Below are positions 1,008-64,000 of a DNA stretch of 64,000 nt, piece by piece (the first letter of the stretch is position 1; each line of letters begins with the position of its first letter). The stretch covers positions 7,678,207 through 7,742,206 of the forward strand of contig OZ037767.1 in the NCBI GenBank assembly GCA_964035545.1. The letters run 5' to 3'. The notes under the pieces are model-generated. The model searched no databases, was not told the origin of the DNA, and saw only the letters and a program-made list of their open reading frames with translations. Made by a program: the position numbers and the translations under genes. Source of the stretch: Bugula neritina (taxonomy: Eukaryota; Bryozoa; Gymnolaemata; Cheilostomatida; Bugulidae).

Positions 1008-1593
1008 GTAAACTCTCTGTGATGACTGTGTAAGTAGCTGGTCTATCTGACTTCTTGTTACCACTATTTATAGCCCAGACTGAGAATGTTATAGAAACTC
1101 CTCCAGCATCAGCTGTGAATGTAACCATTCTATCTGATGTGACTTCTGTGGAACCACCAGTGACTGTCCATTCATAGCTCTTTATAGAATTACAGTTTAC
1201 GATCATTGGTGCCTATGAAATATGCATGCAATGTCATATTCTATATTTACACACGCGCAAACACATAATTATATGTGTGAATGTCCTTCATATGGCTCAT
1301 TATCAGAATAATCTGCAACTAATCAAAAATTCCAAAATAATTTGAAGTAAACTTACAATCCAGTTACAAGTTACGACACAGACACACTTACAGTAGAACT
1401 GGTTGCTATTTAAATAATTTATATATTACAGTGGCTTCGTCAAACAAAATAATTACCCTAACTATTTATACTGGCAGTAAACAAGTTGACAGCGAATATA
1501 AAATTTTGTTGATTCTTCATTAAAAAAAAAGTTTCCAATTAATTATATTTTAAGTTATTGTGCTATAGCAACTAAGCTAGTTGTAAATATTAT

Positions 1594-1635
<42 letters not shown>

Positions 1636-2367
1636 ACGCACACGCACACGCACACGCACACGCACACGCACACGCACACGCACACGCACACTCACGCGCG
1701 TACGCCAATTAATTATATTGATGCATGTCCTTTACAAGTTAAGTTTTGAAATTAGGAGCAAATATAGCAATTATAAAAAAAATTAATGTGACAGCCATCT
1801 GTAACAAGTTAAAAACTTTAAAATAGTTTGTAGTAAATTTACATTTCTGTTATAAAAGTGACAAAGCAGACAAATTTAGCACCTGTCGCTGTTTAAATGA
1901 TTTATAAATTACAGTGGTTTAGTCAAACGAAATAAGTAGGCTGACTTATACTGCCAGTAAAAAAATGACAGCACAACAAAAAAGTAGTTGTCGATTTTCT
2001 TACTCTTTCTGTAATAAAACTGTTTCCAGCTTATTTTATCTCAAAATATTGATCTGTAGCAACAAGTGGTTAGTTCTATGATAGCCTTGAGTGTGTGCAG
2101 CTACTGGTCAAAATAACCTCATATATTATTTGTGAGTTTTTATCGCCAATAACAAATTTCGACATCTCATACATTGGTATATAAATAGTTTAATTGGAAT
2201 CGCGTCATTTCAATTACAAATAATTATAAAAAATGCTTTCCAATTTTATAGAAAGATTTTAGTATTCCTCACCATCCAGGTTGCAGTGTATTTCCATAAT
2301 TTCTTAAAACCATTTAAGGGCTGCAGTCTTTCAGCTGTTAGTTCTATATCAGACGGAGGATTTGGTG
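1008..2367 (-). CDS. Gene A exons 10-11: second fibronectin III domain
   Basis: Exons 2273-2367 and 1008-1212 match 42827-43944 ([38 protein letters not shown]). The donor GTGAGT lies at 1002-1007. The next exon of the gene is not found before the window edge. Confidence 0.8.
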
Positions 2368-5300
2368 CTAAAGTAAGAAAACTGGCTATGTTTTAGAAAT
2401 TGCGCCTTTTTACTAATAATTTATTAAAATACAGGAAGTCCATCAAAATTTGACAATTGATTTTTCTCAGGCATAAAAATCTTACATAATAGCGCTATGA
2501 ATTTCACAAAATATAAATATATTTTTAGTGTGTAAAAAATGCTGTAAGATTTAACCAACTATACAATGCCTTACAAAAGTGTTGTGTACACTAAGTGTAC
2601 ATTAATTGTTATTATGTATGTATCAGAAATGTAACATTATATACTATATACAATTATAAAAGCTGGCACATACCTGTACAATGTTTAGTCATCACAAGTA
2701 GAGAGAAAACAGGTCCAGGACACATATCAGAATTTCCTGTATGATGAGATACTAGAAATCTGTAGAATGTGTCTTCATTCAACTGGGTGGCTGTAAAACC
2801 CACTCTACCATCTTTCTTATTAACATTTAGATTGTTTTCACCAGTCAAACTGACTTCATACCTGTATATTGTAAGAAAATACTAAGTAGTTACTGTTATG
2901 CATCCGTTTTGCTTTCTTTTTAATGATCAACATTTACTAATATAATATGGTATCAGTATTTGTTAGATGTTGATAGAAACATGCTGTTTCTCATATCACA
3001 TACTTACTGTAAGTCCGTATAATTACAGTCAGAAGCACAATTAAAAATCCAGGGCTGGGATTCACGATTCCATTGACTGAAAGATGCTGTCACAGAAGTA
3101 TAGTCTGGATATACTACGTCAGCATTCTTTTCTACACTGAATGTTGGGATATGATCTACAATATTTCAATAAGTGATTAGTTATAAAGTGGTTTGAATAC
3201 TTAACTTGACCAAGAATTATCTCAGCTTTGTAATAACTTTTATAAAATAAGCATTACATTTGAGTAATATAACATTAGGAATGTATAGGCAAATATTTAT
3301 GTATAAAATTTGTGCATTTACAAGTTCAAAGCTTTTTATTACTATACTATAAACCTAGTAAAAAATCATTCCACAATGAAAGTTAGTAAACAAAGACCAT
3401 ACTAATAATAACAAATTATTGATTTAACTGCAAAATTGGTTAAAAAATCACACAAATGATATTTTGTAATATTGCTCAGTTATTTTATAAATTTTGTAAA
3501 CGCATAGCAAAAAATGCTTAGAGTGAGTATTGCAACATTGAATAACATTTAAAGTCAGATTGCTAGTTAGCATGTGGGTGAGGACAGCTGTTTCCACCAG
3601 ATGCAAACCACATTTAAAAGATGTTTTGTTTTATAATCAAGACTAGTAAATAAATCAGAAAGCTGAAACAGAAATTCTAAAGAATAAAAAACTTTATATT
3701 GGTAAGCTAAATACAATAGACTCTGCTCACCATAGCCATATATTTCAACTTCTCTGAATGCTACTCCTAGAGTATTATCAGTGAGTATAGCAAACTGTTG
3801 TATGTATGGAGATACATTCAAGTCACATAACACATTAAACATAACTCCTTGAGAATTTGAAAAATCTCTACATTTCTTCCAGTTATTGCTTGACCCTTTG
3901 TTTGGTGGTTTGTTTACATCATGTGGCTCTGAGTTGGTCAGGTAGTGCATTTGCTTTAGTCTGTCAGCTATGAACCATAATTAAAATAGATAATTGTGGA
4001 ACAAGTTAGTGACCAAACAATATAACCAATAAATTTGTTGGTAATAACTTTAATGCATAATTGTTGGTCAAATGCACAGCACTTAGTAAAGAAAAATCAC
4101 ATATCTAAGAACTTTCATTGTGTTCAAAACAAAAGCAATCACAGTAGCCAGGGTATATTTAATAACTTTCTAATCTCCTTTAAATAAAGCTTTGCTCATG
4201 CTGCCAGATCGGCTTCCATATTATTCTGAAATTGTAACCAACAGCAGTTGGTTACTCAATTAACTGATAGAAGCTATTTTTAATAAAATCATTTGCCGTA
4301 TTACTAATCAAAAAAAGTTAAAGTGCACCCTTTTCACATGCAATAAATAAGCAATTTAGAAATCAACTATAGCGTCTATAATAAATTTGAGTTTGTACAT
4401 TATTATTATTTAGAGTTACACACTGCATTATTGAGCTGTAATTCTTCTACAAGAAAGGCAATGAGTTACTTAATAAAAAGTATATCTATAATTAATGAAA
4501 ATATTAGTAGGTAATACACATATATGTTTTATACTATTTTTGTAATGGCCATATGTAAGGGTTAATCAAAAGTTTTACACTGTAAATAAGATGATCAATA
4601 ATCAAGATATTAAATGTATTTAGCTAGTTTACAATCTTTCACTGTACATTTTATAAGGTTTGACAGAGAGAAATGGGATTAAATAAAAGTTGAGAAAAGG
4701 CAAAAATGATTTGTGTCATGTGTAGCACTAGTGCACCTAAACTCTGAACTACTATCAAATCAAATCAATAAAGGCTGAAGGTTTACGAAAGGCCTAAATT
4801 ACTTTTTCATTGTTAGTTTGTATATTAGTCACTATGCTATAACATTACTTTTGCTATTAGTATAAATATCATACCACAAGGGATTCCATTACAGTCATCA
4901 GTTTGCGCATATATTCTGGCAAACTGAAAGATGATTTTTCTTCCCAAATCTACTTTCCACCATTTACCAGCATTAGACCGTCCTGTGTTAGAGTAGCTAC
5001 TGTCTATTTTACCATCAATAGCAACTTCAGCAGACCAGTTACTGTCACCTCCTGTATAAGTTGACTCCTGATAGGCTGTGCCTCTAGTAGCATAATTTAT
5101 TCCTGAAATCACAAACATATTATTGCATTGAATAGAACTATGTATCCAGTGCATAAAAAATTTAGCCAATATAATATTTAAAGTAATTATTTATTGAAAA
5201 TATTCTATACAAAAGGTTGCATGAAAATGTCACTAACAAAAGAATATGCATGTTTTGTGTGATCAAAATTGCATTTTCTATTTAAGCTACCACTTAATAT

Positions 5301-8300
5301 TTATGAAACTTGGTCAGCAATGAGTTTTAATATTTTTGGTAGATTAGGTAGCATCAAAAACTAATAATACTGGAAACCTGTAAAAGACTTCACCCCACAG
5401 CTTTGACGTAAAAATCAACTTTGCAATGTTAATACTTTACCATTAAACGTTTCATGAAGACAGTGAAAAACTGCCACTGAAACTAGCCTTTTAAAAATAA
5501 ATAATTATGTCTGCTCTGCTTTGAGCAATAATTAAAGTTAGTTTCAATTGAAATAGCAGAATTAGGTAAGCTAAAATTTAGGTACCAAAGTTTGCTGCAG
5601 ACTAGAATTAACAATGGAATAAAAAAATTCTCTTTTTCTATTTATTTCTAAAATACAGTGGATCTTGTTGAATGTGTGGCCATGATGTAGAGTAGTAAAT
5701 ATGAAATATGTTTGTGATATTTATATTGATTGATGTTTTAACTCATGGAGCAAACTGGTTGACTAATTTGATTATTATTTAATAAAATATTTATTTGAAA
5801 AACAGCACGATGGCTTATTTTACAGAGAATAGAAGAGAAGAGGTAAACAAAAATACAGCGATTCTAATTATTGTCACGTGATTGTCATGTGATCAGCAAT
5901 GGAATTGCATGATTGTTTGTCAACAGATCTCTAATCCAATTAACAACAACTTGTATGAGAGAAACATCAATTGTAAAAATATTGACCTAAAAATAATATG
6001 TTGAATTATTAAACTTATGTAACACATAACACTAGTTATCAAGGTTTTTTTTCAACAAAAACTACATTAACTCTATTTTGTTAAGAAAAAGCCAGCCCCT
6101 AAAATATTGGGTGCATAGAGTTTTGCAAAATTGGAAAACGGTGAAGATTTCCAATGTAATAGCAACATCAAAGTTTTCAAAACACATATAAACAGAGTTT
6201 TATTCTTGAAAGAAGTACATGTGAATTATCTCAAATATTTCTACTATAATAAAACAAGAGAGCTCAACTAAAAATGCTTTGCTAAAAATTCATTGAAAGA
6301 GCTCTTTGCCAAGGTTATTGATTAGACTGCTGTAGCAGTAGCAAAAGATAACAGGAGATTCCCACTTAGTTAAAAACGTACTAAACTAGGTGCCTAATGT
6401 TTTGTAACTAAAACACTGTGAATGCTGCCTATAGCTGTAAGAATTATACACAAAATATGTAAATGTTATAGACCACTATCGTCAGACATTGGTTTTTATA
6501 CTTGATTATTTTGTAAAACTCACTTTTCTTTGAGAAGATTTGAACTTCTTTAAGTGAGATAATTCCTGTCTGCTCTTTAGAAACAGCAATGTACTTAAAC
6601 CTTCCTACATCACTGAGTTCAATGACATGGAGGTAGTTTATTGGATCATTCTGAGTAGAGATAACTTCCCAGTCAGATGTAGAGGGATATGAAGTAGTGG
6701 ATACTGTCTCTTTGTTAGAACCCCACACAGTTATATTTGATAGTCTGTAGCCTAAAATATAATGTCTGCCATACAAAACTTATACACTTATAACTCATTA
6801 TCATATGTTAAATAGTGTTCACAACAACTACTGTTTGATGCTAAAACTGTGTTAATAAACTCAACAGGCACACATTCATGCAGGCTTAGTGTTAACAACA
6901 AATTAAATTTTATACAGACAAACATCCTAAAGTGATGCAAATGGACATTCCAACATCATGCAGTTATGTTGTACATAAAAAATGATTTTTAATTAAGAGT
7001 TATAAAACAATGCTGAAATATGCTTTTCTATATATGTACCGCTAAATGTTAAAGCAGTTTTTAATCATGTTTGGTTATTGTAAAAGTTTTATATCATAAA
7101 TGTTTTGAACTTAAAATTTGTTTTCAGAGAATAAACTAATAGAGAAATTGAAGTCACATAGAATTTGTAAGCTTTAGAAAAAGAAGCTACACATGCAGTA
7201 CACCATTTGAGGAAATTGAATTTTAGCAGGTAAATTAAACAGTGGTATCTATTTTAGTGAACAATATGCAAACCTTATAAGTTGCATTTTGTCAATTTAT
7301 ATATGATGTTTTTTTCAGGCAAGCTGTGTCTACAGTAAATTCTTGGCTCTAAAAAACAGTCACTTTGCCAAAACCTGTGTTACTGGAGAGGTCATTTTGT
7401 AGACAGCAAAATAAGATTGAAGGCGCGCATGAAGTAGCGCTTAATATAGCGAAGAAGATTAAATGCGACAACAAGCCTAACTCCCTTATGTCATACAATA
7501 GTAATAGTTTGTTTGTTTGCTTTTATTTTGTCGCAGTCGAAAAAAATTAATTGAGAAAAAATAAACAAAATGACAGGGCCTATGACGCAATAGGATTGTA
7601 GCTAGTCGAGGCACCGTAGTGTCAGCCATGTAAATATACTAGACTTGGCTAGCAATTTATAGGTCAATAGATTTATTGAACAAAGTCAAGATGACAAATT
7701 AAACAAGATATTGTCATTTTAACTTAAACTCATGCAAGTTGATAGTCACCATTCTTGTTGTAAACCCTTGATAGGATGGGTTTTTGTCAAATTTGGCTAT
7801 AAAGACTTATTATGAAAGGGCACAAAAGAAATTATGACTGGATGCTTTTTTAACATCACCAATGACTTACATGTATGTCAGGTTAGAACCCATGACGTCA
7901 TGTTTACTGCGCAAACAATCTATAAATCCATAGACCAAGGCTGCTCTTTATTGTTGTTTAAGCATACTTTCCTAATATTCTCAAAAGCTAATAATTAGTA
8001 TCACATAGTTTTTAAAAGAAAAACCATTTATAGCACAAAAAAACATGATAACTCATTAGTGTTATAAAAAGCGATTAGGCCTATATAAATGAAAAAGTAG
8101 GGGTAAGAGGGGGCGGCACAACAGTATCATATAGGGGTACAAAAAGCCAAATTGTGAGAAAACCTATTAACTTAGAGTTGTGATTTTCTTTTCATAAAAA
8201 GGTATTGACATAGTTATTCAGCCATTGTAGTTTCAACATTTGTGAAACATACGTGTTGAAAAAGCAAGTAAAACTGGTTTTACCTATTTTTTGTAAATTT

Positions 8301-11300
8301 TTTAAGATTTTTAAGCTTTACAACTTTTTACACTCAAAGGCAAAAAGCCTATATTTTACTAATATTGTTGCCATTGCTTGTTTTTACATTGCTTAACTAA
8401 TATAACAGCAAACTCTAAAATAAATTTTTCTTGAGGCACATTTATTTTCAATTTTGCCACACGGGGCACAATGAGCCATGCTGACCGGGGCACAACTGAC
8501 CACCTGATTATTACACCCTGATCACTGTTATTAGTTTGTTTGCCCAAAAATTTGGTTGAAATGTTACTAAAATCTATAGATATAGCAATTTTTGATTTGT
8601 TTGTAAAATATCAGAGACATCATGGTAAGACTACAAAACTACAAGTTGAAGCTCCCTTAATATATACATCTGATGAGGTTAAAGCTTTGCCATTTTATAC
8701 TTAATGCAAAACACTCTGCAGTTGTTATTAGTAGATAGTCATGATATTCATTATATATTGAGAGAATATTCATCTATTTGACTAAAATAAATTGTGATTT
8801 GCTCATTTTCTTCCCCCTTCTCCCTTTCGTCATGAAAATTTAATTATTCTGAAAGTTGTGAGGGAGATAGAAACCAAAAAATATTACTTGTAATAGACAA
8901 CATGCAGATGCAGCATTAAGACTAAAGATTATTGAACTAGTAACTTGAAAAACAGAAGAATAAGAGCAAAAAATGCAAAATTCAACCTGTTGTGCCCCGC
9001 CCCCCCTCCCATTACCCCTAATGCTTGCGCCGCGCCGAAAGACAATTAACTTCTAGCTATAAAAGTTGTTTTTTATGACAGAATAAACAAAATATTGCAA
9101 TAAAGTAACTAATAAAGTTTTTTTTACCTAGCTGATAACAATGAAATAACTGACTTAAATTACATAATTACAAAATATTAACACTTATGTTGCAAATGTA
9201 AACTATCCTGTTGCATTGTGAAACTTAAGTTAGTAGCATGTAATAAAGAGGTCAGTAGAATATGAGTAAAAACACATGACTATTTATTATGGTAATAATC
9301 ATTATTGGCAGCATTAAATATAATATTGACGTCATTATTATTATGATTTAAAATACAATGGTGAGCTTATAACTTTCGAAGCAAATTTTTGATCTTACAG
9401 CATGTTTTCATCTTTCAGCATACAAAATGAGGGCAAAAAGTCCTAAATGTCAAAAACTATGCTGCAGGAGTAACTCGAGAAGTTTAATGCCGGCTTATAT
9501 GAAAAATTTTTGAATATCTAATATTAAGGAAATTAATTTTTGTGTTGGTTTCACATGCATGTTACTAAAGACTTATGATATATACTAACAGGTGTCAGTA
9601 AATAATTTTGTTAAGTCATATTACTTATTGTATATAATAAAAAATACAGTGTTAACAACTTGTTTTCAGAGTATAGAAACTAATTTGTCATGTCAACTTT
9701 AAATTACAATTATGCACTATATAATCAGATAGGTAGTGGATTGTCTTAAATCAATCAAGAAACAGTATGAAGTAAATTCAATGTCTTCCATATTTGAACT
9801 GTTTCTATCACTTGCATAAAATATTAAAATGCATATGTATGCTGTATGCAGTATATCTATCATTCTACAAATATATTAGTCATATAGTCAATGAATGAAC
9901 AGTAAAGATACTCAATATTTTTGTGAGTGAAAAACTTTTGAAAATTGATAAGCCTCGATTAAGTTGCAGAAGTACAGTAATAAATCTTATAGATAAATGT
10001 ATGCTTTTATGAGCCAAAAAAGTTTCTGTTTGCTATACATAATTACCTTTGAGCAGGAATATAACAACTCTATAAGTTGTTGAGTAAACAATATTAACGA
10101 AAGCAGATACTTACGGTATTGTCCCTGTCTATTGAAGAGTTCAATCCACTGAACAGTATACGTGTCTCCTAAATCAACCATCCAGAATTGTCTCGACTTG
10201 TTTTGTGTATGGGTCACTAAATTATCAGATGTATCATTAGCAGCTATTACTCCATCAACACCATAACTTGAAAAATGGTCGCTTGCAGATTCGATGTAGG
10301 TGCTGCTTTGACGTGTAGTTTTTCTGTACGCCAAATTATCTAAAAAGTACAAATAATGGAACAAATTAGTTGGGTGCCTCTACAAAAATGGGCAACCAAA
10401 GGACATAATACTGTTGTTGCTATATATACATCACTGTTGAGCCAACATTCTACTGTTAACAAAGCTGCAAATTTCAATTTTGTATCTGAGAGAGGGCCTC
10501 TCTTAAAAAGAGTGAATATAAAGGGGTTGGTTGAATTTCAAGAAGACATATTGAAATTTGTCCTACCACTAGCTAGAGACCTGGCCACGCTTGTGAGAAT
10601 CACATGAAAATTATGTGACGATTTTTGTGAGTTATCCTCTCGTTTTGACCAACTACACACTTGTCAGATGAAACACATGCATAATAGTCAATGAATGAGT
10701 CTTGCACAAGATATAAACAATAGGAAATTGCCCAAACAGAAAAACGAAATAGAAATGAAATAATCACTGTTGCTAAAATTCTATTGAACAATCAAATTGT
10801 TTGTGATTTTTTGTTCATCATCTTTGTTGGCAGTTGGATCTCAAAGAGGGCGGTTGTGTTTTCAATGCTTTCTGTATTCTAGTCTCTAGCTTTAATGCTT
10901 TTACGGTTTACATTGTGGTGCAGTTATTTCAGCCTTTGTTTATGCTGGCTTATAATCTCCCTTATCTACAAGCCAAAAGGAGTGAAAGGCTTTGACCATA
11001 TCATCATGGATTACCGAGCTCTGTTGGATATCAAAAGCTCCATGGCTTGACATCAGCTGAACGATATTTAGAACACTAACTACAAGTTGTGCTAACTACT
11101 GCGGGTTCTATAAAAAAAAAACTCAAAAAACTTCATGGTCTGCTTAAAACAAAACAACTTAGTAACCAATCTCAGTTAATTTGTGTAACGGAATCCTGGC
11201 TTACTCCATAAGTGCTACGTTCAAGAACTGAGGTTAAAGGTTGTGAACAGTTCCGTGTGGACAGACCTCTAGATGCTAGCGGTAAAACCTGTGGAGAAGG

Positions 11301-30157: not shown

Positions 30158-30474
30158 TTAATTAGAAACTGCAGCATAAACATGGTCTGAAGCAGCTGGT
30201 TGATCTATTTGCAGAACTTCATAATTTACATGCTCTTCCTTTTCAAAAGTTGTATTCATGTAAGTGGGTTGGCAAGCAGTTGTAGCAGACATGATATTAG
30301 AAGGTACTTCATAGGCTGATCCAATATTTCTATCATTGGCAACAGGTGCACGGAGGCCTAAATCTTTCATTGAGGCAATTTTTTTTCTTTGCATAAGACT
30401 TATGCCACCAAATACAACTGCCACCATAAAGGTCAATAATAAGGCTGCTGATAATCCAATCACAATAAACGAGT
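30158..30474 (-). CDS. Gene B exon 22: transmembrane helix and tyrosine-rich tail
   Basis: Residues about 1192-1215 form one hydrophobic helix ([12 protein letters not shown]...VVFGGI) followed by a basic stop-transfer QRKK. The tail carries tyrosines at 1244 (YEVP), 1261 (YMNT), 1274 (YEVL in VNYEVL) and 1289 (YAAV). VNYEVL fits the ITIM consensus (I/V/L/S)xYxx(L/V/I); YMNT fits the Grb2-type YxN; YEVP fits a YxxP SH2 site. YEVL and YAAV are separated by 11 residues, as in a loose ITAM. The stop TAA is at 30158-30160. Phosphorylation and partners are inference. Confidence 0.9.
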
Positions 30475-48400: not shown

Positions 48401-51400
48401 ATGAGACTATTGATCGGACTGCTGTAGCAGTAGCAGAAGATAACAAGAGATTCCCAGTAAGTTAAAAACATATTGAACTTGGTGCTCAATATTTTTTAAT
48501 TAAAACACTCTGCGAATGCTGCCTACTATAGCTGTAAGAATAATACACATATGTAAATGTTATAGGCCACTATGCTCAAACAATATTTTTCATGCTAAAC
48601 TATTTGTAAAACTCACTTTTCTTTGAGAAGATTTGAACTTCTTTAAGGGAGACAATTCCTGTCTGCTCTCTAGAAACAGCAATGTACTTAAACCTTCCTA
48701 CATTACTGAGTTCAATGACATGGAGGTAGTTTATTGGATCACTCTGAGTAGAGATAACTTCCCAGTCAGATGTAGAGGGATATGAAGTAGTGGATACTGT
48801 CTCTCTGTTAGAACCCCACACAGTTATATTTGATAGTCTGTAACCTAAAATATAATGTTTGCCATACACAACTTATACACTTATAACACATTATCATATG
48901 TTAAAAAGTGTTCACAACAACAACCACTGTTAAATGCTAAAACTGTGGTAATAAACTCAACAGTACATTTTCATACAGGGTTATATAGTGTTAGCAACTG
49001 AATTACACTTTATACAGACAAACATCCTAAAGTGATGCAAATGGACATTCCACCATCATGCAGTTATGTCAAAAGTAAAAATGATTTTAATAAAAAGTTA
49101 TGCACCAATGTTGAAATATGCTTTTCTATACATACAGCTAAATGTTAAAGCAGTTTTTAATCATGTTTCGTTATTGCAAATGTTTTATATCATAAATGTT
49201 TCAAACTTGAAATTTACTTTCAGAGAAATAAACTGTTAGAGAAACTGAATTCACACAGAATATGTAAGCTTTAGAAAAAGAAGCTACTCATGCAGTACAA
49301 ACTTTTAGGAAATCAAAATTCCGCTGGTATTTCAAACAGTCGTATCTATTGTAGTGAACAGTATGCAAACCTTATAAGTTGCATTTTGCCTATTTATATA
49401 TGATTTTTTTTCAGGTTAGCTGTGTCTACAGTAAACTCTTGGCTCTGAAAACGGTCAGTTTGCCAAAGCCTGTGTCACTGGAAAGGTCATTTTGTAGACA
49501 ACCAAATAAGATTGAAGGTGTGCATGAGGTAGGGCCTAATAGAGCGAGGAGGAATAAATGCAACCACGAACCTAACTTCCTTATATCTGTCATACAATGG
49601 TAATAGTGTCCGCAACGTCAATATACTAGACTTGGCTAGCATTTGATAGGTCAATAGATTTATTGAACAAAGTCAAGATGTGAAATTAAACAAAAAATAT
49701 TGTCATTTTAACTTAAACTCATGCAAGTTGATAGTCACCATCCCTGTTGGAAACCCTTGATAGAATGGGTTTTTATCGAATTTGGCTATAAAGACTTATT
49801 CAGAAAGGTCACAGAAGAAATTGTGACTAGATGCTTTTTTAACATCACCAATGACTTATGTCAGGTTAGAACCCATGACGTCATGTTTACTCGGCAAATA
49901 ATCCATAAACCCCTTAACCAAGGCTGCTCTTTATTGTTGTTTAAACATACTTTTTTAATATTTTCAAGAGCTAATAAATAATATCACGTATTTTTCAAAA
50001 GAAAAATCATTTATAGCACAAAAGAAACAGGATAACTCATTAGTGTTATAAAAACCGATTATATAAATGAAAAAGTAGGGGTAAGGGGGGGGGCACAACG
50101 GTCATAGGGGTACAAAAAGCCGCAGCCAAATTGTGAAAAAACTTATTGACTTAGAGTTGTGATTTTCTTTTCATAAAAATGTATTGACATTGTTATTCAG
50201 CCATTGTAGTTTCAACACTTGCGAAACATATGTGTTGAAAAGGCAAGTAAAACTGGTTTTACCTACTGTTTGTAAATTTTTTAAGATGTCATTAAAGCTT
50301 TACAACTTTTTACATTCAAAGGCAACAAGCTTAGATTTTACTGATATTGTTGCCATTGCTTGTCTCTACCTTGCTTAACTAGTATAACAGCAAACTCTAA
50401 AATGAATTTTCATTGAAGCACATTTATTTTCAAACAACGGAACACTCACTGTCACACACATGAGGCGCTCTACTAACGTCATATGATGGTCAAGAGCCTT
50501 CTACCTCATCAGAGGTAATCAGAAGTAATTTGACCACCCGGGCACAATTGGCCACGCTGACCGAGGCACAATGGGCCACCTGATTATTGCACCCTGATCA
50601 CTGTCATTAGTTTGTTTGCCCAAAAAGTTGGTTGAAATGTTACTAAAATCTATAGATATAGCCATTTCTGACCTGTTTGTAAAATATCAAAGACATCATG
50701 GTAAGACTACAAAACTACAAGGTGAAGCTCCCCTAATATATATACATCTGGAGAGGTTAAATCTTTACCATTTTATACATAATACAAAACACTCTGTTGT
50801 TGCTACTAGAACATAATCATGATATTCATTATACTCAGACATTGTATCATTGAGGGAATATACAAGTATTTGACTAAAATAAATTGTGATTTGCTCATTT
50901 GCTCCCCCCCTCTCCCTTCCGTACTCCAGCCACAAACTGAAGCTATGCACCTTAGCTAGTTCATAGAAAAAAGTCCACTCGGAATGTTGTAGTACATGTT
51001 ACTAAGGTTTTTTTCAGATAACAGTTCCTCTGAAGTGAAAATAAAAAAACATTTTTAGTTCTAAACAGTAATGATAATGGCACCGAAGAAATGAGGGATG
51101 TGCATTTAGTTTTGCCTTTCCCTGCTATCTGTGGTAGCACAAACTGTACAGCTAAAACATGAATAATTTTTATTTATTTGTAATATTAAATAAATAAATA
51201 TCAGATGCAACAAAATCTGCTAAGTTTCAATGTACTTGTTGTGTCCCACCCAGTGGCCCATTGCACCCCGGTACCTGGGCACAATGGGCCAATTTTTTCG
51301 TTATAAAAATTTTGTTATTCTGAAAGTTGTGAGAGAGATAGAAACAAAAATTGATACTTGTAATAGACAACAGATGCAGCATTAGGACTAAAGATTATTG

Positions 51401-52915
51401 AACTAGTAACTTGAAAAACAGAAGAATGAGAGCAAAAAATGCAAAATTTGGCCCGTTGTGCCCCCCCCTCCATTACCCTTAATGCTTGTGCCGAATGACA
51501 ATATTAACTTCTAGCTATAAAAGTTGTTTTTTACCACAGAATAAACAAAATATTGCAGTAAAGTAACTAATGAAGTTTTTTTTACCTAGCTGATAACAGT
51601 GAAATAACTGACTTAAATTACATTAATACTAAATTGTAGCACTTATGTTGCAAATGTAAACTATCCTGTTGCATTGTAACACTTATGTAAGCAACATGTA
51701 ATAAAAGCAGTCAGTAGATTATGAATAAAAACACATGACTAATTACTATATTAATAATCCTTATTAGCAGCATTAAATATGAGAGTGGCGTCATTATTAT
51801 ATTTTAAGATACAATGGTGAGCTTATAACTTTCGAAGCAAATTCTTGATCATACAGCATTTTTTCATCTTTCAACATACAAAATGAGGTCAAAAAGACCT
51901 AAATGTCAAAAACTATGCTGCAGGAGTAACTCCAGAAGTTAAATGCCGGCTTATATGAAAAATTCTTGAATATCTTATAATAAGCAAAAACTAATTTTTG
52001 TGTTTGCTTCACTTGTGTGTTACTAAAGACCTAAAACATATATTAACAGGAGTAAGTAAATAATTTTTTCAAGTCATATTACTTATATATATAATAAAAA
52101 ATACAGTGTAAACAACTTTTTTTCAAAATATAGAAACTAATTTGTCATGTTAACTTTAAATTACAATTATTACACTATATAATCAGATAGGTAGTGGTTT
52201 GTCTTAAATTAATCAATGAAGAAACAGTATGAAGTAAACTTAATGTATTCCATATTTAAACTGTTTCTATCACTTACATAGGATATTACAATGCATATGT
52301 ATGCTGTATGCAGTATATCTATCATTCTACACGACTATATTAAATATATAGACAATGTCAACAATGACAATGACAAGACAACAGTAAAGATATTCAATAT
52401 TTTTGTGAGTGAAAAACCTTTGAAAATTGAAAGGCCTCAGTTAATTTGCAGAAGTACAGTAATAAATTTTATAGATGGATGGTTTCATGAGCCAAAAATG
52501 TTTCAGTTGGCTATACATAATTACCTTTGAGCAGGAATAAAACAAGTTTATAGGTTGTTGAGTAAAGAATATTAACAAAAGCAGATACTTACTGAAATAT
52601 CCCTGTCTATTGTAGAGTTCAATCCACTGAACATTATACGTGTCTTCTAAATCAACCATCCAGAACTGTTTCGACTTGTCTTGCGTATGGGTTACTAAGA
52701 AATCAGCTGTATCAACAGCAGCTATTACTCCATCAACACCATAACTTGAAAAATGACTGCTATATGGGATGACAGTTTCGATGTAGGTGCTGCTTTCATG
52801 TGTTGTTTTTCTGTACGCCAAGTTATCTAAAAATTATAAGAAATAATATATATATAAGTATATATATAAGTATATATATAAGTATATATATAAGTATATA
52901 TATAAGTATATATAA

Positions 52916-53010
<95 letters not shown>

Positions 53011-53014
53011 AATA

Positions 53015-53098
<84 letters not shown>

Positions 53099-59000: not shown

Positions 59001-60669
59001 TTCTACATAGAGAGCTTTTAGACTAGAGCCAGCAAAATATAAAACAGTATAAAAATGAAATCTGCATAAATTGCTGCTTAGTAATCCGCATGAATTGCTA
59101 AATACTTGTTCAACATTGAATAATGCCAACTCATATACCATTGCTTTCTTGTACTTCTACAAACACTTGTGTAGTGCTTTTATTATTTACTAGTTTTGGA
59201 AAAGAAATCTTTTACAAAATTGACTGTACAGCATATAGTGATATTTCTCACAATTGAAGTACTTCTTTGAGAAATTATAATTATATTTAAATGTTTACCA
59301 ATAAAATTAATTATTGCAATATTTTATATTTGAAATATCCATTTTATGCAAATTGACTCTCTGAGTTAGATTACCGCCAACAATTATAAAATTGTTCACA
59401 AAGGTACTAAGCTTACCTACATTGGTTCAATTACTCAACACAATGTTCACATTGTGGTAAACTCTCTATAGTTACTGACACATCTCATTACATGAATTCT
59501 ATACCAAGAAAAAGAAATAATCTGATAAACTGCACAACTTACAGTCCTGTTCATACACTTCTACTTCAGCCAATGAAAGAGGTTCTGTATGAACACTGTA
59601 TACAGCCACATGTCTAACAAGAACATCAGCTTCTAATATAACAGTAGCTTCAGCTCCATATTGTTTATCTCTGTATGATCTGATCATCCAGTTACTGTCA
59701 TTGACTAGAGTCGGCTCCCCTGGGTTATCTTCCGCAGACGTGAGGATGTAAATCTTCTGAAGCCTGTGACCTAAAGTTATAAAAATGATCTCATAACAAT
59801 TCTGCATAATATGCTTAAAAAGCAAACAAAGCATCAATTGGCAAAATTTGAATTTCTGTAACTTACAACTTGTTACCTTAACAGATTAAACTAAAATTTG
59901 CTTTAATGAAAGTCACACAGTAGTAACATATTATACTTTTTTGATATACTCATATACATACACTGGCGACAGTTATAATCCTGTCTGTTCCATATATTGA
60001 TCCTGCTGACATGAAACTTCTCCTCCAAATCTACCATCCACCATTTCTCAACAGGCACGCGTGAAGTGTGAGTGAAATCATCAATTTTTCCATTAACCGC
60101 ATTTTTTGCCTCATACATTCCATACATGGTTGATTGACGACATGGTTTGTTTAGAGCTAAATTATCTACAAATATATTCTATTAGAATACTAATTCTAAT
60201 CAGAAACTGTTCCATATGATGCACCATTATTTTATTGAAGCCAATGAAGACAATGCCTAATATGATGCTACCTGCAATACACATTATTTAATAAAATATG
60301 TTGTGAATAAAAAAATTGCGTTTTCTGTCTTGAACAAAAAGTTTTCCAGTCGATTAATAACAACTTTTAAAAACACATACTTTTTTATATACTGCAAATC
60401 ATAAAACATTTGAAAAAGTTAGTAGCGACTCAATCGGTATTTTGTATGTGCTGACACTGGTGCAACCACTCATCAGTATTTAAAAAACACAACCTAACTG
60501 GCTCAATTATTACACCTAAATAACTACACATAATTTTATAATGAAGCACTCAATTATAAAAATAAATGCCTAAAACACTGTACCATGCATTACCTTGAGC
60601 AGTGCTGACTGAAAGACATACTGAGTACATCACAATCAGCAACCAGAGTTTTTCCACGCCAACCTTCAT
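30158..60669 (-). CDS. Gene B: complete lectin-FN3-sushi transmembrane receptor, 22 exons
   Basis: Exons: 60594-60669, 59962-60165, 59543-59770, 52593-52826, 48617-48844, 47231-47458, 46118-46354, 45317-45464, 44978-45165, 43856-43944, 42827-43031, 42208-42311, 41948-42116, 41574-41668, 41236-41434, 40936-41042, 40496-40688, 39486-39579, 38254-38539, 31192-31243, 30739-30942, 30158-30474. All introns are GT..AG and the exons sum to 3885 nt (1294 aa plus TAA), with codon phase kept at every join. Domain order by residue: signal peptide 1-25; three F-type-lectin/F5/8C domains 26-169, 170-323 and 324-478; FN3 units 479-590, 591-688, 689-779 and 780-877; an FN3-like unit 878-977; a phosphatase-receptor-like membrane-proximal region 978-1104; a linker; sushi 1122-1189; TM about 1192-1215; cytoplasmic tail to 1294. 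It is likely a cell-surface carbohydrate or protein receptor. The function is inferred from domains only; I do not recognise a named orthologue. Confidence 0.93.
30739..30942 (-). CDS. Gene B exon 21: sushi/CCP domain
   Basis: This single exon encodes residues 1122-1189. It has four cysteines in the sushi order: 'TTCSNPPAG', 'YECEKG', 'LHCVVN', and a Trp before the last Cys ('[12 protein letters not shown]'). A single-exon sushi unit flanked by phase-1 introns is the usual mobile form of this module. In complement and allorecognition receptors such domains mediate protein-protein contact. Confidence 0.85.
31192..31243 (-). CDS. Gene B exon 20: 17-residue linker exon
   Basis: This 52-nt exon encodes [17 protein letters not shown] between the membrane-proximal region and the sushi domain. 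It is supported by an acceptor at 31244, a donor GTTAGC and exact codon phase with both neighbours. It is separated from exon 19 by a 7-kb intron filled with mobile DNA, so its inclusion could vary between transcripts. Confidence 0.78.
31492..31659 (+). mobile_element. 756-bp TIR element family, truncated copy 3
   Basis: Matches the first about 165 bp of the copy at 24328, from ACAGG..GATAGTTAAGGGCATCC to the CAACCTTC(A/G)TTA block, then ends abruptly. A G-run (GGGGGGGGG) replaces a GCGGGTGG segment of the full copies. Confidence 0.8.
31800..31975 (+). repeat. Gypsy LTR fragment, plus orientation
   Basis: Shares with the element 1 LTR the run TTCGG.CAACAAAGGA, then TATAAAAGC and a block around CAGTGTAG.TTCAGTCTAC and ACTGGAGCTCG. 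It is an isolated piece in intron 19 of gene B. Confidence 0.6.
31985..32240 (-). repeat. Gypsy LTR-like fragment, minus orientation
   Basis: The minus strand has TATAAAAG near 32108-32115 and AATAAAG near 32036-32041 at LTR-like spacing, and it abuts the plus-oriented LTR piece. Similarity to other LTRs here is weak. Confidence 0.4.
32307..33388 (+). repeat. Left inverted arm of the ISL2EU-like element
   Basis: Pairs with 35383-36463 on the other strand. Open frames on the two arms mirror each other because of this repeat, not because of coding. Confidence 0.9.
33490..35351 (+). pseudogene. ISL2EU-like DDE transposase, inactive
   Basis: A first exon ends at 33823 with the family signature '[20 protein letters not shown]'; a GT..AG intron (33824-34659) follows. 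Exon 2 has the helix-turn-helix part ('[16 protein letters not shown]', 'LAGLFHIS'), then the DDE_Tnp_4 catalytic domain: first Asp in '[10 protein letters not shown]', '[19 protein letters not shown]', second Asp in '[10 protein letters not shown]', 'GAKLAIPP', and the last block as '[11 protein letters not shown]', where family members have Glu after IHV. A stop at 34982 and a frameshift near 35140 also break it. Confidence 0.85.
35383..36463 (-). repeat. Right inverted arm of the ISL2EU-like element
   Basis: Inverted copy of 32307-33388 with scattered substitutions and small indels. Confidence 0.9.
36630..37270 (+). mobile_element. Truncated gypsy element 3: LTR end, primer site, gag fragment
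   Basis: The primer site TGGTGGCAGCAGTGGGAT (36674-36691) follows LTR-like sequence. Gag starts at ATG 36725, shifts frame near 36880, and continues with [27 protein letters not shown] and [15 protein letters not shown] to about 37175, close to the element 1 gag. A further 60-90 bp ('[16 protein letters not shown]') may come from the RNase H/integrase linker, implying an internal deletion. Confidence 0.78.
37848..38030 (-). repeat. Inverted LTR and degenerate primer site facing element 3
   Basis: The plus strand at 37848-37865 is a mutated copy of the tRNA-Leu-type primer complement (ATCTCGCCGCTGCCACTA). Outside it the minus strand has AATAAA (37962-37967) and the CAGTCTTCCACTGGAGCTCG core shared with the element 1 LTR. 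Confidence 0.6.
38254..39579 (-). CDS. Gene B exons 18-19: membrane-proximal region resembling receptor tyrosine phosphatases
   Basis: Exons 39486-39579 and 38254-38539 encode residues 978-1104. The stretch 'SYLILVQKK', a basic RSKR patch, 'CYITAEI', 'YEFTVGDG', 'YNGYENTKL' and 'ADYDVW' follows the order of the membrane-proximal extracellular segment of metazoan receptor-type tyrosine phosphatases (Y-x-I-x-V, then YIAAE, then GDG..Y.GY.N..L, then Y.V). The RSKRA site could be a furin-type cleavage site, as occurs in that family. No phosphatase domain follows; a sushi domain and a short tail do. Confidence 0.72.
38885..39012. repeat. 128-bp near-perfect hairpin
   Basis: Two 64-bp arms meet at GCTTTA|TAAAGC (38948/38949) with no spacer and about five mismatches. 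It lies in the intron between exons 18 and 19 of gene B. It may be a foldback mobile element or a recent inverted duplication. Confidence 0.93.
40047..40205 (+). mobile_element. tRNA-derived SINE
   Basis: The tRNA-like head has a box A-like GTGGTCTAGGGGTTAGAAC, an anticodon-arm-like CTGCTTAGTAAGCAG (loop TTAGTAA) and a box B-like GGGTTCGAGCC. The acceptor stem does not pair, so it is not a tRNA gene. The body has GGAAGAGCATCTAGCC, similar to a central motif common in invertebrate SINEs, and ends in an A-rich tail. Confidence 0.82.
40496..41042 (-). CDS. Gene B exons 16-17: fifth extracellular unit, FN3-like
   Basis: Exons 40936-41042 and 40496-40688 encode residues 878-977. The start '[13 protein letters not shown]' resembles an FN3 linker, and '[21 protein letters not shown]' and '[17 protein letters not shown]' have the spacing of FN3 strands. 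Sequence identity to FN3 is weak, and three cysteines are unusual for that fold. I call it FN3-like from position and exon pairing rather than from a clear motif. Confidence 0.6.
41236..41668 (-). CDS. Gene B exons 14-15: fourth fibronectin III domain
   Basis: Exons 41574-41668 and 41236-41434 encode residues 780-877. Markers are '[11 protein letters not shown]', '[16 protein letters not shown]', '[19 protein letters not shown]' (the FN3 'L-x-P-x-T-x-Y' tyrosine-corner region) and '[12 protein letters not shown]'. Several N-x-S/T sites suggest an extracellular, glycosylated surface. Confidence 0.82.
41948..42311 (-). CDS. Gene B exons 12-13: third fibronectin III domain
   Basis: Exons 42208-42311 and 41948-42116 encode residues 689-779. 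The first has the strongest FN3 signature in the gene, '[21 protein letters not shown]' split over the A and B strands, then 'GTIISYQ'. The second has '[23 protein letters not shown]', equivalent to the YxVxVxAxNxxGxGxxS end of an FN3 domain. Confidence 0.82.
42827..43944 (-). CDS. Gene B exons 10-11: second fibronectin III domain
   Basis: Exons 43856-43944 and 42827-43031 encode residues 591-688. They start with the FN3 linker '[12 protein letters not shown]', continue with 'KTWKYTATW', and end with '[13 protein letters not shown]', '[18 protein letters not shown]' and '[11 protein letters not shown]'. The fold is recognised from the pattern; no partner can be inferred. The gene A copy (1008-2367) is two residues longer in the first exon. 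Confidence 0.78.
44651..44840. repeat. 29-bp tandem repeat followed by degenerate GGTTTAGG-like tract
   Basis: A 29-bp unit (starting ATGGCACAAAGCATGGTAAA) occurs at 44651-44679 and 44680-44708, with the start of a third. It is followed to about 44840 by G-rich variants of GGGTTTAGG/GGCTTAGGTTT. It lies in the intron between exons 9 and 10 of gene B. Confidence 0.75.
44978..45464 (-). CDS. Gene B exons 8-9: first fibronectin III domain
   Basis: Exons 45317-45464 and 44978-45165 encode residues 479-590. The second exon has the FN3 core pattern (YEVSLTGE..., then L-x-x-G-T-x-Y-R-F-L-V at '[11 protein letters not shown]'), followed by '[14 protein letters not shown]', the G strand and linker. 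The first exon carries the B/C strands ('[11 protein letters not shown]'). The A paralogue has the same two exons. Confidence 0.8.
46118..47458 (-). CDS. Gene B exons 6-7: third F5/8C-like domain
   Basis: Exons 47231-47458 and 46118-46354 encode residues 324-478. Markers are '[12 protein letters not shown]', '[14 protein letters not shown]', '[11 protein letters not shown]', 'RIYAQ', 'CNGNPC' and the closing '[12 protein letters not shown]'. The usual His and Arg-x-Asp sugar ligands are not seen. It is the most divergent of the three copies and is placed directly before the first FN3 unit. Confidence 0.82.
48617..52826 (-). CDS. Gene B exons 4-5: second F5/8C-like domain
   Basis: Exons 52593-52826 and 48617-48844 encode residues 170-323. 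Visible family features are 'NLAYRKT', 'GVDGVIAA', 'THTQ', '[11 protein letters not shown]', 'ELYNRQG', and '[10 protein letters not shown]' with the closing '[11 protein letters not shown]' pattern (here VSLKEVQIF). The R-x-D loop of sugar-binding members is absent (NRQGYF), so this copy may not bind fucose. Compared with the same exon of gene A it carries three extra residues near 'VIPYSS'. The intron between the two exons (3.7 kb) holds a small TIR element. Confidence 0.85.
50077..51481. mobile_element. Small TIR element, copy in gene B intron
   Basis: Left end AGGGGTAAGGGGGGGGGCAC; right end GTGCCCCCCCCTCCATTACCCTT. It is in the same intron as 8099-9020 in gene A but about 480 bp longer, including segments near 50430-50580 and 50930-51300 that are missing from the A copy. 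GGGCACAATGGGCC occurs internally at about 50545-50580 and 51275. Confidence 0.6.
52847..53135. repeat. AT minisatellite and TA tract
   Basis: About five units of TATATATAAG(TA), then about 200 bp of almost pure TA with a few interruptions. It begins 20 bp upstream of exon 4 of gene B. The A paralogue lacks it. Confidence 0.93.
53136..53771. other. Gene B intron 3, unassigned part
   Basis: AT-rich, no gene or repeat recognised. No counterpart is seen in the gene A intron. Confidence 0.4.
53772..54527 (-). mobile_element. 756-bp TIR element, copy 2
   Basis: Same length and nearly the same sequence as 24328-25083, in inverted orientation. The terminal CACAGGATAGTTAAGGGCA is perfect at both ends, flanked by CA on each side. 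The shared internal frame begins at the same offset (346 nt). Confidence 0.85.
54528..55303. other. Gene B intron 3, unassigned part
   Basis: Moderately AT-rich. No gene, domain or terminal repeat could be identified. It abuts the gypsy integrase fragment. Confidence 0.4.
55304..56884 (-). pseudogene. Gypsy element 4: integrase and pol tail fragment
   Basis: Reading leftwards: the zinc-binding part ('[15 protein letters not shown]', 'YWPRMG', '[10 protein letters not shown]', an HHCC arrangement), then the integrase core with '[11 protein letters not shown]' and '[18 protein letters not shown]', then the GPF-like C-terminal part ('[12 protein letters not shown]') and a proline-rich tail. The integrase joins retroelement DNA to the chromosome. 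Only the last third of pol is present; RT, gag and LTRs are not. Element sequence ends near 56630, where sequence shared with gene A intron 3 resumes; the apparent frame beyond it is intron. Confidence 0.85.
56637..59542. other. Gene B intron 3, right part
   Basis: AT-rich intron aligned with 16771-19710 of gene A. No exon or element recognised. Confidence 0.6.
59543..60165 (-). CDS. Gene B exons 2-3: first F-type lectin (fucolectin-like) domain
   Basis: Two exons (59962-60165 and 59543-59770) encode residues 26-169. The sequence has F-type lectin/discoidin hallmarks: 'NLALNKP' at the start, '[13 protein letters not shown]', 'WWMVDL', 'INIWNRQD' and the closing '[11 protein letters not shown]'. 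The family is a beta-barrel that binds fucosylated glycans through a His and an Arg-x-Asp loop. Here a His in 'FTHT' and '[10 protein letters not shown]' sit where the binding His and R-x-D...R loop are expected, with spacing slightly different from the canonical motif. Two loop cysteines are present. Sugar specificity cannot be read from this. Confidence 0.85.
60594..60669 (-). CDS. Gene B exon 1: start codon and signal peptide
   Basis: The ATG at 60667-60669 starts a 25-residue stretch with a short basic start (MKVGVEK), a hydrophobic core ([12 protein letters not shown]) and a small-residue cleavage region (SVSTAQ), typical of an N-terminal signal peptide. The donor GTAAT follows at 60593. 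The start is chosen because the paralogue at 21141 has the same ATG and the 5' flank is conserved in both. Confidence 0.9.
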
Positions 60670-63600
60670 TCTCCCATCTGTACTCTGTTAACATTCAGTG
60701 CAAAATAAACTAACAGAGGAAGAAGAAGGAAGTTAGTTTGTAAAAACATTTACGTAAGTAAATCTATTTATTAGATTCCTACATAATAAAGGGGGTGTTT
60801 TATTTAACCATTGTTACAAAGCAAGAATATGTTTAAATAGGTAAAAGGTTTTTGAATGCACTAAGCTCATTCATTCTTTTACTACTCAATTGTATGAGTT
60901 GCCTGTATTAAATAAATACAATCTTCACAATTCTATACAATCACTTTCTCTTTCATTTCTAAACTTGCTCTCTGCAAGCATAGTAACTCAAGCATATGTG
61001 CCAACTAGTCATAACAGGTTTTAGTAGCTAGTGTTGTTTCACATGAAACAGAGTCTACAGCAGTAGAATCTAAACTAACTAATTATTTCCAGGATTCATC
61101 AATACCATATATTCACCCAAATACTCTAATTTATGACTATACTGAGTAAAGTTATCCTGTTTTTTCAAAAGTACACTGGTGTTTAGAGTAATAAAAAAAC
61201 TTCTTGGCATCTCATTACTAGTAGCTCTAGTAAAAGTAGATTTTAAATGCCCCAACAGTAAACACAACAACCACCAATGACCTCATTGACCCCATTAAAG
61301 TTCCTGTTTATGCCTTGCATTGGTGGCATTACTCATCTACTTTGCACTGATTGTTAGATCTGTAGTTATGTGAGAGTGGTTTGGGTGACTAGCCCATGTT
61401 TTTGCCCCACATTTTCCGCCACAATATTGTGGTGAGGTGATGCAGGAAATGTTCAAATCTACTAAAATCTAAATAAAATCATATGACACTGAACGCATGT
61501 TAACAAAAGTAGCAGAAGTGTCATTTTGTTTTTCGCTGTTTTGCAGCTAAATGTGCCTAGGGGCGCTACCTCAATCAATTAAAACTAATTAATTTTGTAC
61601 ACTATTACACAAACTCAATCAAAATTCCTAAGGAAAGTCTCAATTGCAAATAATGTTCATAAAATGAAGTTTGTTGACACCATAAATTAGGATGTTCCAT
61701 AAGAAACAGTTGTGCAAGCATGCGTGTATGTGTGCGTACATGTGTGCCTGTTACTTATATTCTTCAACGCAATTGGATGCCTAATGGCAATTGAAGCGTG
61801 GAAAGACAAGGGTATATAGTTTAACTAATCAGTCATTTAGGCTTATAAGGCAAAAATGAGTTGCTTCAGAGCTGATGCGTATTATAAATATCTATACCAA
61901 AGTGCTTGTTCTAATAAAAGTAGCTGTTAAAGTTCAATACTTTGCTATGAGCATTCCTGCAAATACTCAATTAGGTTTCACTCTCGAAATTCTAAACAAA
62001 TCCACCATTTTTAATAAGTTATTTTAAAAGGCAAGCTACCTCAAAAGTATCTGAAGCAATCACAATTTACGGTCTGCGATGAAATAAAGCTAGTTTATTA
62101 ATTTTATGCTAAACAGTTGAATAATAAATTTTACTGTCTGGTTTCTTTTTGTAATTCAAGATATCTCTAGCTTGGAGACTGAGAAATAATTTTAAAAAAT
62201 TTATTTAGTGAAAATTTGGCTTATCAAAAAATATTTTTGATACACAAAATTTGTTTAATATAAAATAAATTATTTCAACAATTGTTCAAGTAAATAATAA
62301 AGATAAAACTCAACCTAGGCAAAAGTGAAAAAAAACATGTTTTTATATATATAAAAATATATTTCCTAATTCTTTTTAGGCACCTGAGATTTGATATTTG
62401 TAGCAACAGAAGTTTTCTGTCCATAAAAAGCAACAAATGCAGCACCAGCCAGCCAACAAGAAATTGCTTGCTTCTAACTTCAAATAGAGAAGCTACATTT
62501 AATGCTCAATTTTTTACAATAAAGCAAAACTGTGTCTTTTCTAAAAAAGTTGCCCAACTGATGTATATAATTGCCCTTCTCACAAAAGAATCCTTCACAG
62601 GCAAAAATATTTTTTGTCTATTTAAAACTAGCAGAACAAAAGCTTTGGAGTGGCATAAAGCAAAAACAATTGCATCTATATTATGTCTAACCCACCCAAT
62701 TTTGTATGTCAGCACCCCTGCCACACCAAAATCTGGATGGAAACTTTTGACTATTGGTTATTATTAAGCTGCATGTTTGAACTTTATTAGTAGTGAAAGC
62801 CATTGCATAAAAACACACTTGCTAATAATAAACCACTTGCTATTAAATTCAACCAGAGGTTTGATATTATGCAAATTGATTTGAAATAATGAAAATTTAT
62901 TTCTAAGTAGACCAAAGCCACAAATAAATACATTAGAATGCATACTGTGGAGCAAAAGAAATGCTACAATTAGAACTAAGAATATCGGCTAATATTTTAG
63001 CAGCTGACAGCAGCTACAAATTTAACAATATTGTTTATTCCATTTACGTATATACACTGTAAACAGATGTTATATGTCATAGAAAAAAACTTTGTTTAAA
63101 TGCAATTCATTGTTGCAAATAAATAATGTTTTCGGTCTCCAAACATTCTTGTCTCGTTACAGAGCTATAAACTAGCTTTATTTCATGTGACATATAACAT
63201 GTGAATAATAAAACAGAACGCACAACTCAAAAAATTATATTGTCTTACAGATAAAAAAATGTGTTCTCACAGTCTCTATAACGCTGTGTATAAATTTCAC
63301 TAAATAAAAATTAATATTTTAGTGCAAAACTACTCTGTATAATAGATATATAAAAATAAACTGATTACCATGACCAATAGTCATATTTCTCAATCATCAT
63401 AATAATAACTCAAAACCATAAATATTATAGCTTACCTTCCACAAATAGAGTTCATGAAACTTATTATAGAGAGTAGTCAACATTTTTTTTTCTAAATATT
63501 TGAAAGATATTTAATAATTTTAAATGTTTGTAATCAATTTTTTGAATATCAAAAATAATAAAAGCAGTGAGTATTAAAAGTGAGTTGAAAATATTAAATA

Positions 63601-63712
63601 GTTTGCCATCATAAAGATAGAATACTAGTTAATTTGTCTTATGTAATACTTCGCAGTCGGATTTGTTAGATTTAAAAATTAAAAGCCATGTTAGAATAAG
63701 TATATTGAATAT
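60670..63712. other. B/C intergenic spacer
   Basis: 5' flank of gene B followed by 3' flank of gene C. It aligns with the A/B spacer apart from the LTR element there, and near 62035-62060 it preserves the uninterrupted insertion site. No gene is supported. Confidence 0.6.
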
Positions 63713-64000
63713 TTAATTAGAAACTGCAGCATAAACATGATCTGAAGCAGCTGGTTGATCTATTTGCAGAACTTCATAATTTACATGCTCCTCTTTTTCA
63801 AAAGTTGTATTTATGTAAGTGGGTTGGCAAGCAGTTGTAGCAGACATGATATTAGAAGGTACTTCATAGGCTGATCCATTATTTCTATCATTCGCAACAG
63901 GTGTAGGGAGGCCCAAATCTTTCATTGAGGCATTCTTTTTTCTTAGCATAATAACTATGCCACCAAATACAATTGCAATCATAAAGGTCAATGATAGGGC
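63713..64000 (-). CDS. Gene C: last exon (TM and cytoplasmic tail) of a third paralogue
   Basis: An open frame runs from the right edge to a TAA at 63713-63715. It matches the final exon at 30158-30474 in the juxtamembrane basic cluster, the 'MKDLGL' segment and all four tail tyrosines. The YMNT motif becomes YINT, which keeps the YxN pattern, and YEVP, YEVL and YAAV are unchanged. By comparison with gene B the exon should end about 30 bp beyond the window, so only its 3' end is visible. The gene lies on the same strand as the other two, about 3.0 kb upstream of the start codon at 60669, so it is the next unit of a head-to-tail array. Confidence 0.9.
   Translation of the reverse strand, partial: ALSLTFMIAIVFGGIVIMLRKKNASMKDLGLPTPVANDRNNGSAYEVPSNIMSATTACQPTYINTTFEKEEHVNYEVLQIDQPAASDHVYAAVSN

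Follow-up and report, generated by a model that had tools for sequence, protein, structure and literature searches.

Similar lectin-type ectodomains on two kinds of tail in a tandem array of predicted receptors from Bugula neritina

Vertebrate paired receptors (KIR, SIRP, PILR) place similar ectodomains on two kinds of tail, lie in one cluster and exchange sequence. The Alr proteins of Hydractinia have Ig-like domains and tail motifs. They are considered to act in homophilic adhesion (PMC11876637), fester of Botryllus is described with three predicted transmembrane (TM) segments and one SCR exon (PMC3549757), R2B receptor phosphatases are said to appear first in chordates (PMC6440744), and many R3 receptor phosphatases reportedly have a predicted YxN site at the C terminus (PMC5336234). 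The subject here is a 64,000-nucleotide stretch of chromosome 3 (C3) of the bryozoan Bugula neritina (contig OZ037767.1, positions 7678207-7742206; the window), which holds the whole of one gene, B, and parts of two neighbors, A and C, from a tandem array of predicted membrane receptors. The window is read as containing three genes of a tandem family that descends from receptor tyrosine phosphatases, and the family as paired receptors that would carry lectin heads on either a phosphatase or a tyrosine tail; a probability of about 0.55 is assigned to this reading. To our knowledge, no described receptor-phosphatase family combines lectin heads with a sister class whose tail is swapped. Among the matches that a literature search listed, mostly without subscription papers, there was neither such a family nor a named recognition gene from bryozoans, nor a named family with the domain order of these genes; an earlier prediction from the same DNA (the original prediction) had also known none with this order.

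Gene models were built as core-guided exon chains scored on between-copy conservation, codon use and splice sites. Gene B, remodeled independently of the original prediction, has 22 exons on the minus strand (60669-30158) and lies entirely inside the window. Its introns are GT-AG in 21 of 21 cases, all junctions are in frame, and the coding sequence of 3885 nt encodes 1294 amino acids. The exon number, length and frame reproduce the original model, and the encoded order also agrees with it: signal peptide, three F-type-lectin domains, FN3 units, a receptor-phosphatase-like stalk, sushi domain, TM segment and tyrosine tail. The stalk has a furin-like RSKR site. The single hydrophobic segment besides the signal peptide is at residues about 1189-1219. 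Two other chain settings were dropped, a strict score that lost exons and a permissive score whose chains of 96 and 161 exons contained many false ones. The probability that 22 segments of the B exon lengths, taken from the long introns of B, are all open is ~4e-36, a value that carries no correction for the choice of open exons; between-copy conservation is the firmer control. Self-comparison of the window, which is 34.9% GC, shows that much of 0.3-30.4 kb is repeated at 42.4-64 kb with 68-89% identity, and units of the window recur along the minus strand of the neighboring DNA.

Pfam profiles were used to identify the domains of gene B. The proposed F5/8C and FN3 domains were both found, with F5_F8_type_C_2 matching three stretches (8.1e-22) and fn3 matching two (2.2e-5), and Fn3_PTPRU was matched at residues 992-1099 (2.5e-8). 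The match to the proposed sushi domain is weaker: PF00084 was matched at an expectation value (E) ≤ 1 in 8 of the 8 sushi exons scanned, with a best value of 6.1e-5, but the B exon scored 16.1 bits (E = 0.015), below the Pfam cut-off of 20.7. MAM and Ig domains gave no Pfam match in gene B at E ≤ 1. A search of the PDB matched residues 839-1099 to PTPRM and the front of the protein to F-type lectins, and the three front domains are assigned, as predictions, to the F-type lectins. No homologue was returned by a protein database search at E ≤ 0.001 (7993 candidates scored). The RSKR site lies within the PTPRM-matching stalk domain and is present in six of the seven genes that have exon 19. Because RSKR sits in a PTPRM-like stalk and PTPRK is cleaved by furin (PMC6440744), the receptor may consist of two pieces after cleavage.

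The array consists of eight genes (G0, G1, G2, G3, A, B, C and D) in 294 kb, all on the minus strand, and extends past the window on both sides. Exons of B were matched in 143 of 176 slots across the eight genes with 0 stops. The projected AG/GT splice dinucleotides were kept at 254 of 256 positions, 42 of which belong to gene B itself, and both misses fall at exon 21 of G3, where AG and GT are found 3 and 12 bases further out. Projection of the B exons gave no match in G1, G2, G3 and A for exons 10-13, which encode two FN3 units. Three F-type-lectin domains on FN3 units occur in all seven members whose 5' half was read, and six of these have the phosphatase-type stalk. In gene C, exons 1-11 are in the window (21141-1009), and exons 12-22 lie to its left and were checked on the neighboring DNA. 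Only part of the last exon of gene A is in the window (63713-64000); the remainder lies to the right and was checked there. False duplications in the assembly or false exon joins in the models are hardly credible as the source of the array. The gene model was built from DNA alone, and A and G1 share a 9.2-kb tract at 98.7% identity, but the majority of the remaining between-copy alignments have about 76-93% identity, the splice sites agree between copies, and the Bugula assembly is based on HiFi and Hi-C data (PMC11480708). The observation of a tandem receptor array is confirmed at the level of sequence. The three same-strand tandem paralogues of the original prediction stand as to strand and arrangement, within an array that is larger, and the family is multicopy rather than a known conserved single-copy receptor.

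Two classes of tail are attached to these ectodomains. Three genes, D, G2 and G0, encode receptor tyrosine phosphatases with WPDHGVP and HCSAGVGRTG; HC and SAGVGRTGT join across a checked exon junction in all three, with the catalytic residues of HC(X)5R and WPD present. Past the stalk position each has a TM exon and a juxtamembrane part, then a phosphatase domain followed by a second one that by eye seems degenerate. The intracellular part of D matches PF00102 (Y_phosphatase) at 2.7e-66, and its PDB matches are receptor phosphatases with no subtype assigned; the gene model of D contains some false short exons, and only the named stretches were used. The first phosphatase domain of D, G2 and G0 is active-looking in its residues. 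In genes A, B, C, G1 and G3 a sushi-TM-tail cassette takes the place of the phosphatase after the corresponding stalk exon. Exon 20 ends in a phase-1 junction in both B and D, leading to the sushi exon in B and to the TM exon in D; the two tails are interchangeable at one junction. The original prediction was right about the stalk, the tyrosine tail and the domain order but incomplete. Phosphatase genes with a similar ectodomain stand in the same array, and because of these the window genes are better classed as a tail-swapped branch of the receptor-phosphatase family than as a family of their own.

Genome searches covered the assembly of 215,847,546 bases in 295 contigs. Y_phosphatase gave at least 153 matches (150 of 285 candidates scored), several of them in the array. 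Neither this search nor a second one (150 of 197 candidates scored) listed a Y_phosphatase match inside the window, and gene B has no intracellular phosphatase domain among the matches listed. The matches closest in identity to the D phosphatase in the second search are, among those listed, also on C3. Matches to the sushi-TM-tail cassette, 21 in all and 10 of them TM-tail exons, lie solely on C3, at 7.107-8.095 Mb (27 of 27 candidates scored). Five of the ten tails read are in the array and five are elsewhere on C3. All ten retain QPxY(M/I)(N/D), YE(V/I/P)(L/M)Q and VY(A/T), and the first tail tyrosine (YEVP in B) is missing from two.

The ectodomains do not sort by tail type. Across exons 1-17, by our own count, 31 of the 39 gene-exon cells of phosphatase genes have a tyrosine-tail gene as nearest neighbor, where ~29.5 are expected without sorting. 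D groups with B (98/96) in a tree of exons 8, 9 and 14-17, and the phosphatase genes form one clade in 0% of 200 bootstrap trees of these exons. B and G2, which belong to different classes, have 2.9 kb in common at 96.8% identity across the 5' flank and exons 1-3. The A/G1 tract, within one class, falls to 80-87% identity upstream. Both tracts look like conversion or recent exchange.

Selection was measured as the ratio of nonsynonymous to synonymous substitution (dN/dS), averaged over 21-28 pairs for most domains, 10 for sushi and tail and 6 for exons 10-13. Mean values were 0.48 for the signal peptide, 0.58, 0.68 and 0.50 for lectin domains 1 to 3, 0.34-0.57 for the FN3 units, 0.52 for the stalk, 0.49 for sushi and 0.44 for the tail. 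Strong positive selection, sought as a domain mean above 1, was found in no domain. Single pairs exceeded 1 in the signal peptide (2/21), lectin 1 (1/21), FN3a (1/28), FN3e (2/28) and sushi (2/10); these are short stretches, some without synonymous change. In the three pairs among D, G0 and G2 the phosphatase has a dN/dS of 0.12-0.18 versus 0.41-0.61 for the ectodomain. These values indicate that both tails are kept and that the front of the protein evolves faster. That the tyrosine-tail genes are degenerate phosphatase receptors with no function of their own is very improbable: they lack the phosphatase and lie amid transposons, but their tail is under constraint, no stop interrupts the 143 exon matches, and the tail motifs are retained in five further tails that are just 37-52% identical to that of B.

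Lectin domains, variation in domain number and exchange between genes are more usual in recognition families. The three lectin domains, varying domain number and inter-gene exchange of the array therefore stand against an explanation in which these are adhesion or developmental receptors, a lineage-specific expansion of phosphatases and tail variants that would act in cell contact during budding or patterning with no recognition role. This explanation is unlikely but carries real weight. Mean dN/dS is below 1 in every domain, other genome clusters have a similar stalk, several of them with phosphatase matches, and F5_F8_type_C_2 has no match on C1 among the matches listed (150 of 256 candidates scored). 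One C1 stalk gene, read in part (stretch L038), has FN3 units, an RKKR site and an array-type stalk, and vertebrate R2B receptors are described as working in homophilic cell contact (PMC6440744).

Variability in the ectodomain bears on a second alternative. Positions with at least four residues among seven genes number 5/142, 7/152 and 6/153 in the three lectin domains, 6/110, 0/97 and 2/99 in FN3 units a, d and e, and 2/142 in the stalk. A bryozoan allorecognition locus, with self labels on the lectin heads and accept or reject signals from the two tails, is improbable given so few variable lectin positions and no domain mean of dN/dS above 1. Points in its favor are a colonial host, clustered membrane proteins with conversion-like tracts, reports of allorecognition in bryozoans (PMC3549757, PMC12018476), a source in which the groups named with identified genes are cnidarians and tunicates (PMC11876637), and the draft Bugula genome paper, which expected allorecognition genes and reports weak Alr1 similarities (PMC7576161). 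The self/non-self or microbe-glycan role put forward in the original prediction is a hypothesis, and allorecognition is worth testing because the host is a colonial bryozoan.

The paired-receptor reading suggests the following mechanism. The lectin heads of both classes, if co-expressed, would bind one common glycan on neighboring cells, microbes or symbionts; B. neritina carries a bryostatin-making symbiont (PMC11480708). Kinases would phosphorylate the short tails, and SH2 proteins would be recruited to them. The phosphatase class would gather on the same ligand and strip phosphate from the short tails, and the response would depend on the ratio of the two opposing classes, much as it does with paired receptors. 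More tentatively, and with considerable doubt, the array could supply an exchangeable lectin ectodomain, homogenized by conversion and mounted on either an active phosphatase or a tyrosine docking tail that is its possible substrate, as a discriminator of self from non-self or of symbionts from microbes in the bryozoan colony. If the paired-receptor reading is true, receptor phosphatases would be one arm of a paired-receptor cluster outside vertebrates, and an enzyme and its possible substrate would be encoded side by side behind a shared lectin head. The array is a concrete candidate locus for recognition in bryozoans, a phylum with reported allorecognition.

Several observations weigh against this reading. 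Eight genes, five with tyrosine tails and three with phosphatases, are a small number. G0 was read from the FN3 units onward, and the stalk exons 18-20 with the RSKR site were not found in the phosphatase gene G2 (C3 near 7.81 Mb). G3 has RIKG at the RSKR position. Phosphatase genes have one another as nearest neighbors in 3 of 3 cells of exon 14, 2 of 3 of exon 16 and one cell each of exons 11, 15 and 17, and the classes separate in exons 19 and 20 (4 of 4 cells). The lectin-exon tree of seven genes has no resolved grouping and places the phosphatase genes together in 10%. The tail motifs, which we take to be Grb2-like YxN and ITIM-like (immunoreceptor tyrosine-based inhibitory motif), are putative SH2-docking sites. 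The fucose-binding motif of F-type lectins, HX26RXDX4(R/K), is altered. Lectin domain 2 has HX26R, counted in B, and the later Arg in 7 of 7 genes, with the Asp replaced by G or S; lectin domain 1 has HX27R in B instead of HX26R, and all 7 genes keep both Arg there but only 5 of 7 the Asp; in lectin domain 3 the His is missing. Fucose binding is uncertain because of these three changes. Equivalents of the His and the two Arg, by our placement, are retained in 7 of 7 genes in domains 1 and 2, and a fucose-like ligand for these two domains is plausible.

Coordinates of the exons inside the window are collected in Table 1.

Table 1. Exons of array genes B, C and A in window coordinates.
Gene	Exon	Position	Strand	Content
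B	1	60594..60669	-	start codon, signal peptide
B	2	59962..60165	-	F-type lectin domain 1, first half
B	3	59543..59770	-	F-type lectin domain 1, second half
B	4	52593..52826	-	F-type lectin domain 2, first half; HX26R kept
B	5	48617..48844	-	F-type lectin domain 2, second half
B	6	47231..47458	-	F-type lectin domain 3, first half
B	7	46118..46354	-	F-type lectin domain 3, second half
B	8	45317..45464	-	FN3-like unit a, first half; name given from position and appearance
B	9	44978..45165	-	FN3-like unit a, second half
B	10	43856..43944	-	FN3 unit b, first half
B	11	42827..43031	-	FN3 unit b, second half
B	12	42208..42311	-	FN3 unit c, first half
B	13	41948..42116	-	FN3 unit c, second half; weak donor GTTTGA
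B	14	41574..41668	-	FN3-like unit d, first half; match to PTPRM begins at residue 839
B	15	41236..41434	-	FN3-like unit d, second half
B	16	40936..41042	-	FN3-like unit e, first half
B	17	40496..40688	-	FN3-like unit e, second half
B	18	39486..39579	-	start of membrane-proximal stalk (Fn3_PTPRU)
B	19	38254..38539	-	stalk; furin-like RSKR and a stretch of 11 protein letters not shown
B	20	31192..31243	-	stalk end; phase-1 junction to sushi (TM exon in gene D)
B	21	30739..30942	-	sushi (CCP) domain
B	22	30158..30474	-	TM helix; tail with YEVP, YMNT, YEVL, VYAAV; stop codon
C	1	21067..21141	-	signal peptide, full codons only
C	2	20131..20331	-	F-type lectin 1, first half
C	3	19712..19936	-	F-type lectin 1, second half
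C	4	10116..10337	-	F-type lectin 2, first half
C	5	6525..6749	-	F-type lectin 2, second half
C	6	4876..5100	-	F-type lectin 3, first half
C	7	3732..3965	-	F-type lectin 3, second half
C	8	3010..3153	-	FN3-like unit a
C	9	2675..2860	-	FN3-like unit a
C	10	2276..2365	-	FN3 unit b
C	11	1009..1212	-	FN3 unit b
A	last	63713..64000	-	TM and tyrosine tail, cut at window end

Sequences resembling mobile elements were noted by eye in and between the genes. A GC-rich (54%) insert at 10400-16700 in an intron of gene C contains broken frames with the look of a Ty3/gypsy-type retroelement, frames of this kind also occur near 36801-37397 and 55705-56346, and a gypsy-like element is present in the C1 stretch L038. 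Between genes B and C, at 23126-26447, there are zinc-knuckle and reverse-transcriptase/RNase H-like frames. An inverted repeat of 1.08 kb (32304-33381 and 35388-36466, 96.5% identical) lies between exons 19 and 20 of B, and a frame inside it, 34628-34984, reads like a DDE transposase. There is also a 0.76-kb repeat (24325-25084 and 53771-54530, 98% identical) that recurs at several further places in the array and may help unequal exchange.

The Fn3_PTPRU stalk has 46 genome matches in all. Further stalk clusters are at 2.8-2.9, 3.37-3.47 and 3.96-4.23 Mb on C1 and at 1.28-1.34 and 2.19-2.32 Mb on C5, some with phosphatase matches, and a cluster of phosphatase-domain matches at 8.02-8.43 Mb on C6 has no stalk match among the matches listed. 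The genome holds a large receptor-phosphatase expansion.

The array shares with the R2B phosphatases (PTPRM, PTPRK, PTPRT, PTPRU) its FN3 units, the membrane-proximal Fn3_PTPRU stalk with a basic RSKR site and, in D, G2 and G0, the intracellular phosphatase domain. It differs in having three F-type lectin domains where R2B receptors have MAM and Ig domains, and in the sushi domain and short tyrosine tail that the other five genes (A, B, C, G1, G3) carry instead of the phosphatase. The F-type lectins (eel agglutinin, FBP32, Sm-hPAF) align with lectin domains 1 and 2, which keep the His and two Arg equivalents, whereas the array proteins are predicted membrane receptors with an altered motif and a third domain that has no His. 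Botryllus fester is likewise a sushi-bearing membrane protein of a colonial animal and a candidate in recognition, but gene B has one TM segment and combines lectin and FN3 domains with a phosphatase-type stalk. Hydractinia Alr proteins are also clustered membrane proteins of a colonial animal, unlike gene B in their domains, since B has no Ig-like Pfam match at E ≤ 1. As in vertebrate paired receptors, the array has similar ectodomains on two tail types in one cluster with exchange between genes; unlike them, one arm carries its own phosphatase, and the ectodomain is built of lectin and FN3 domains rather than Ig or C-type lectin.

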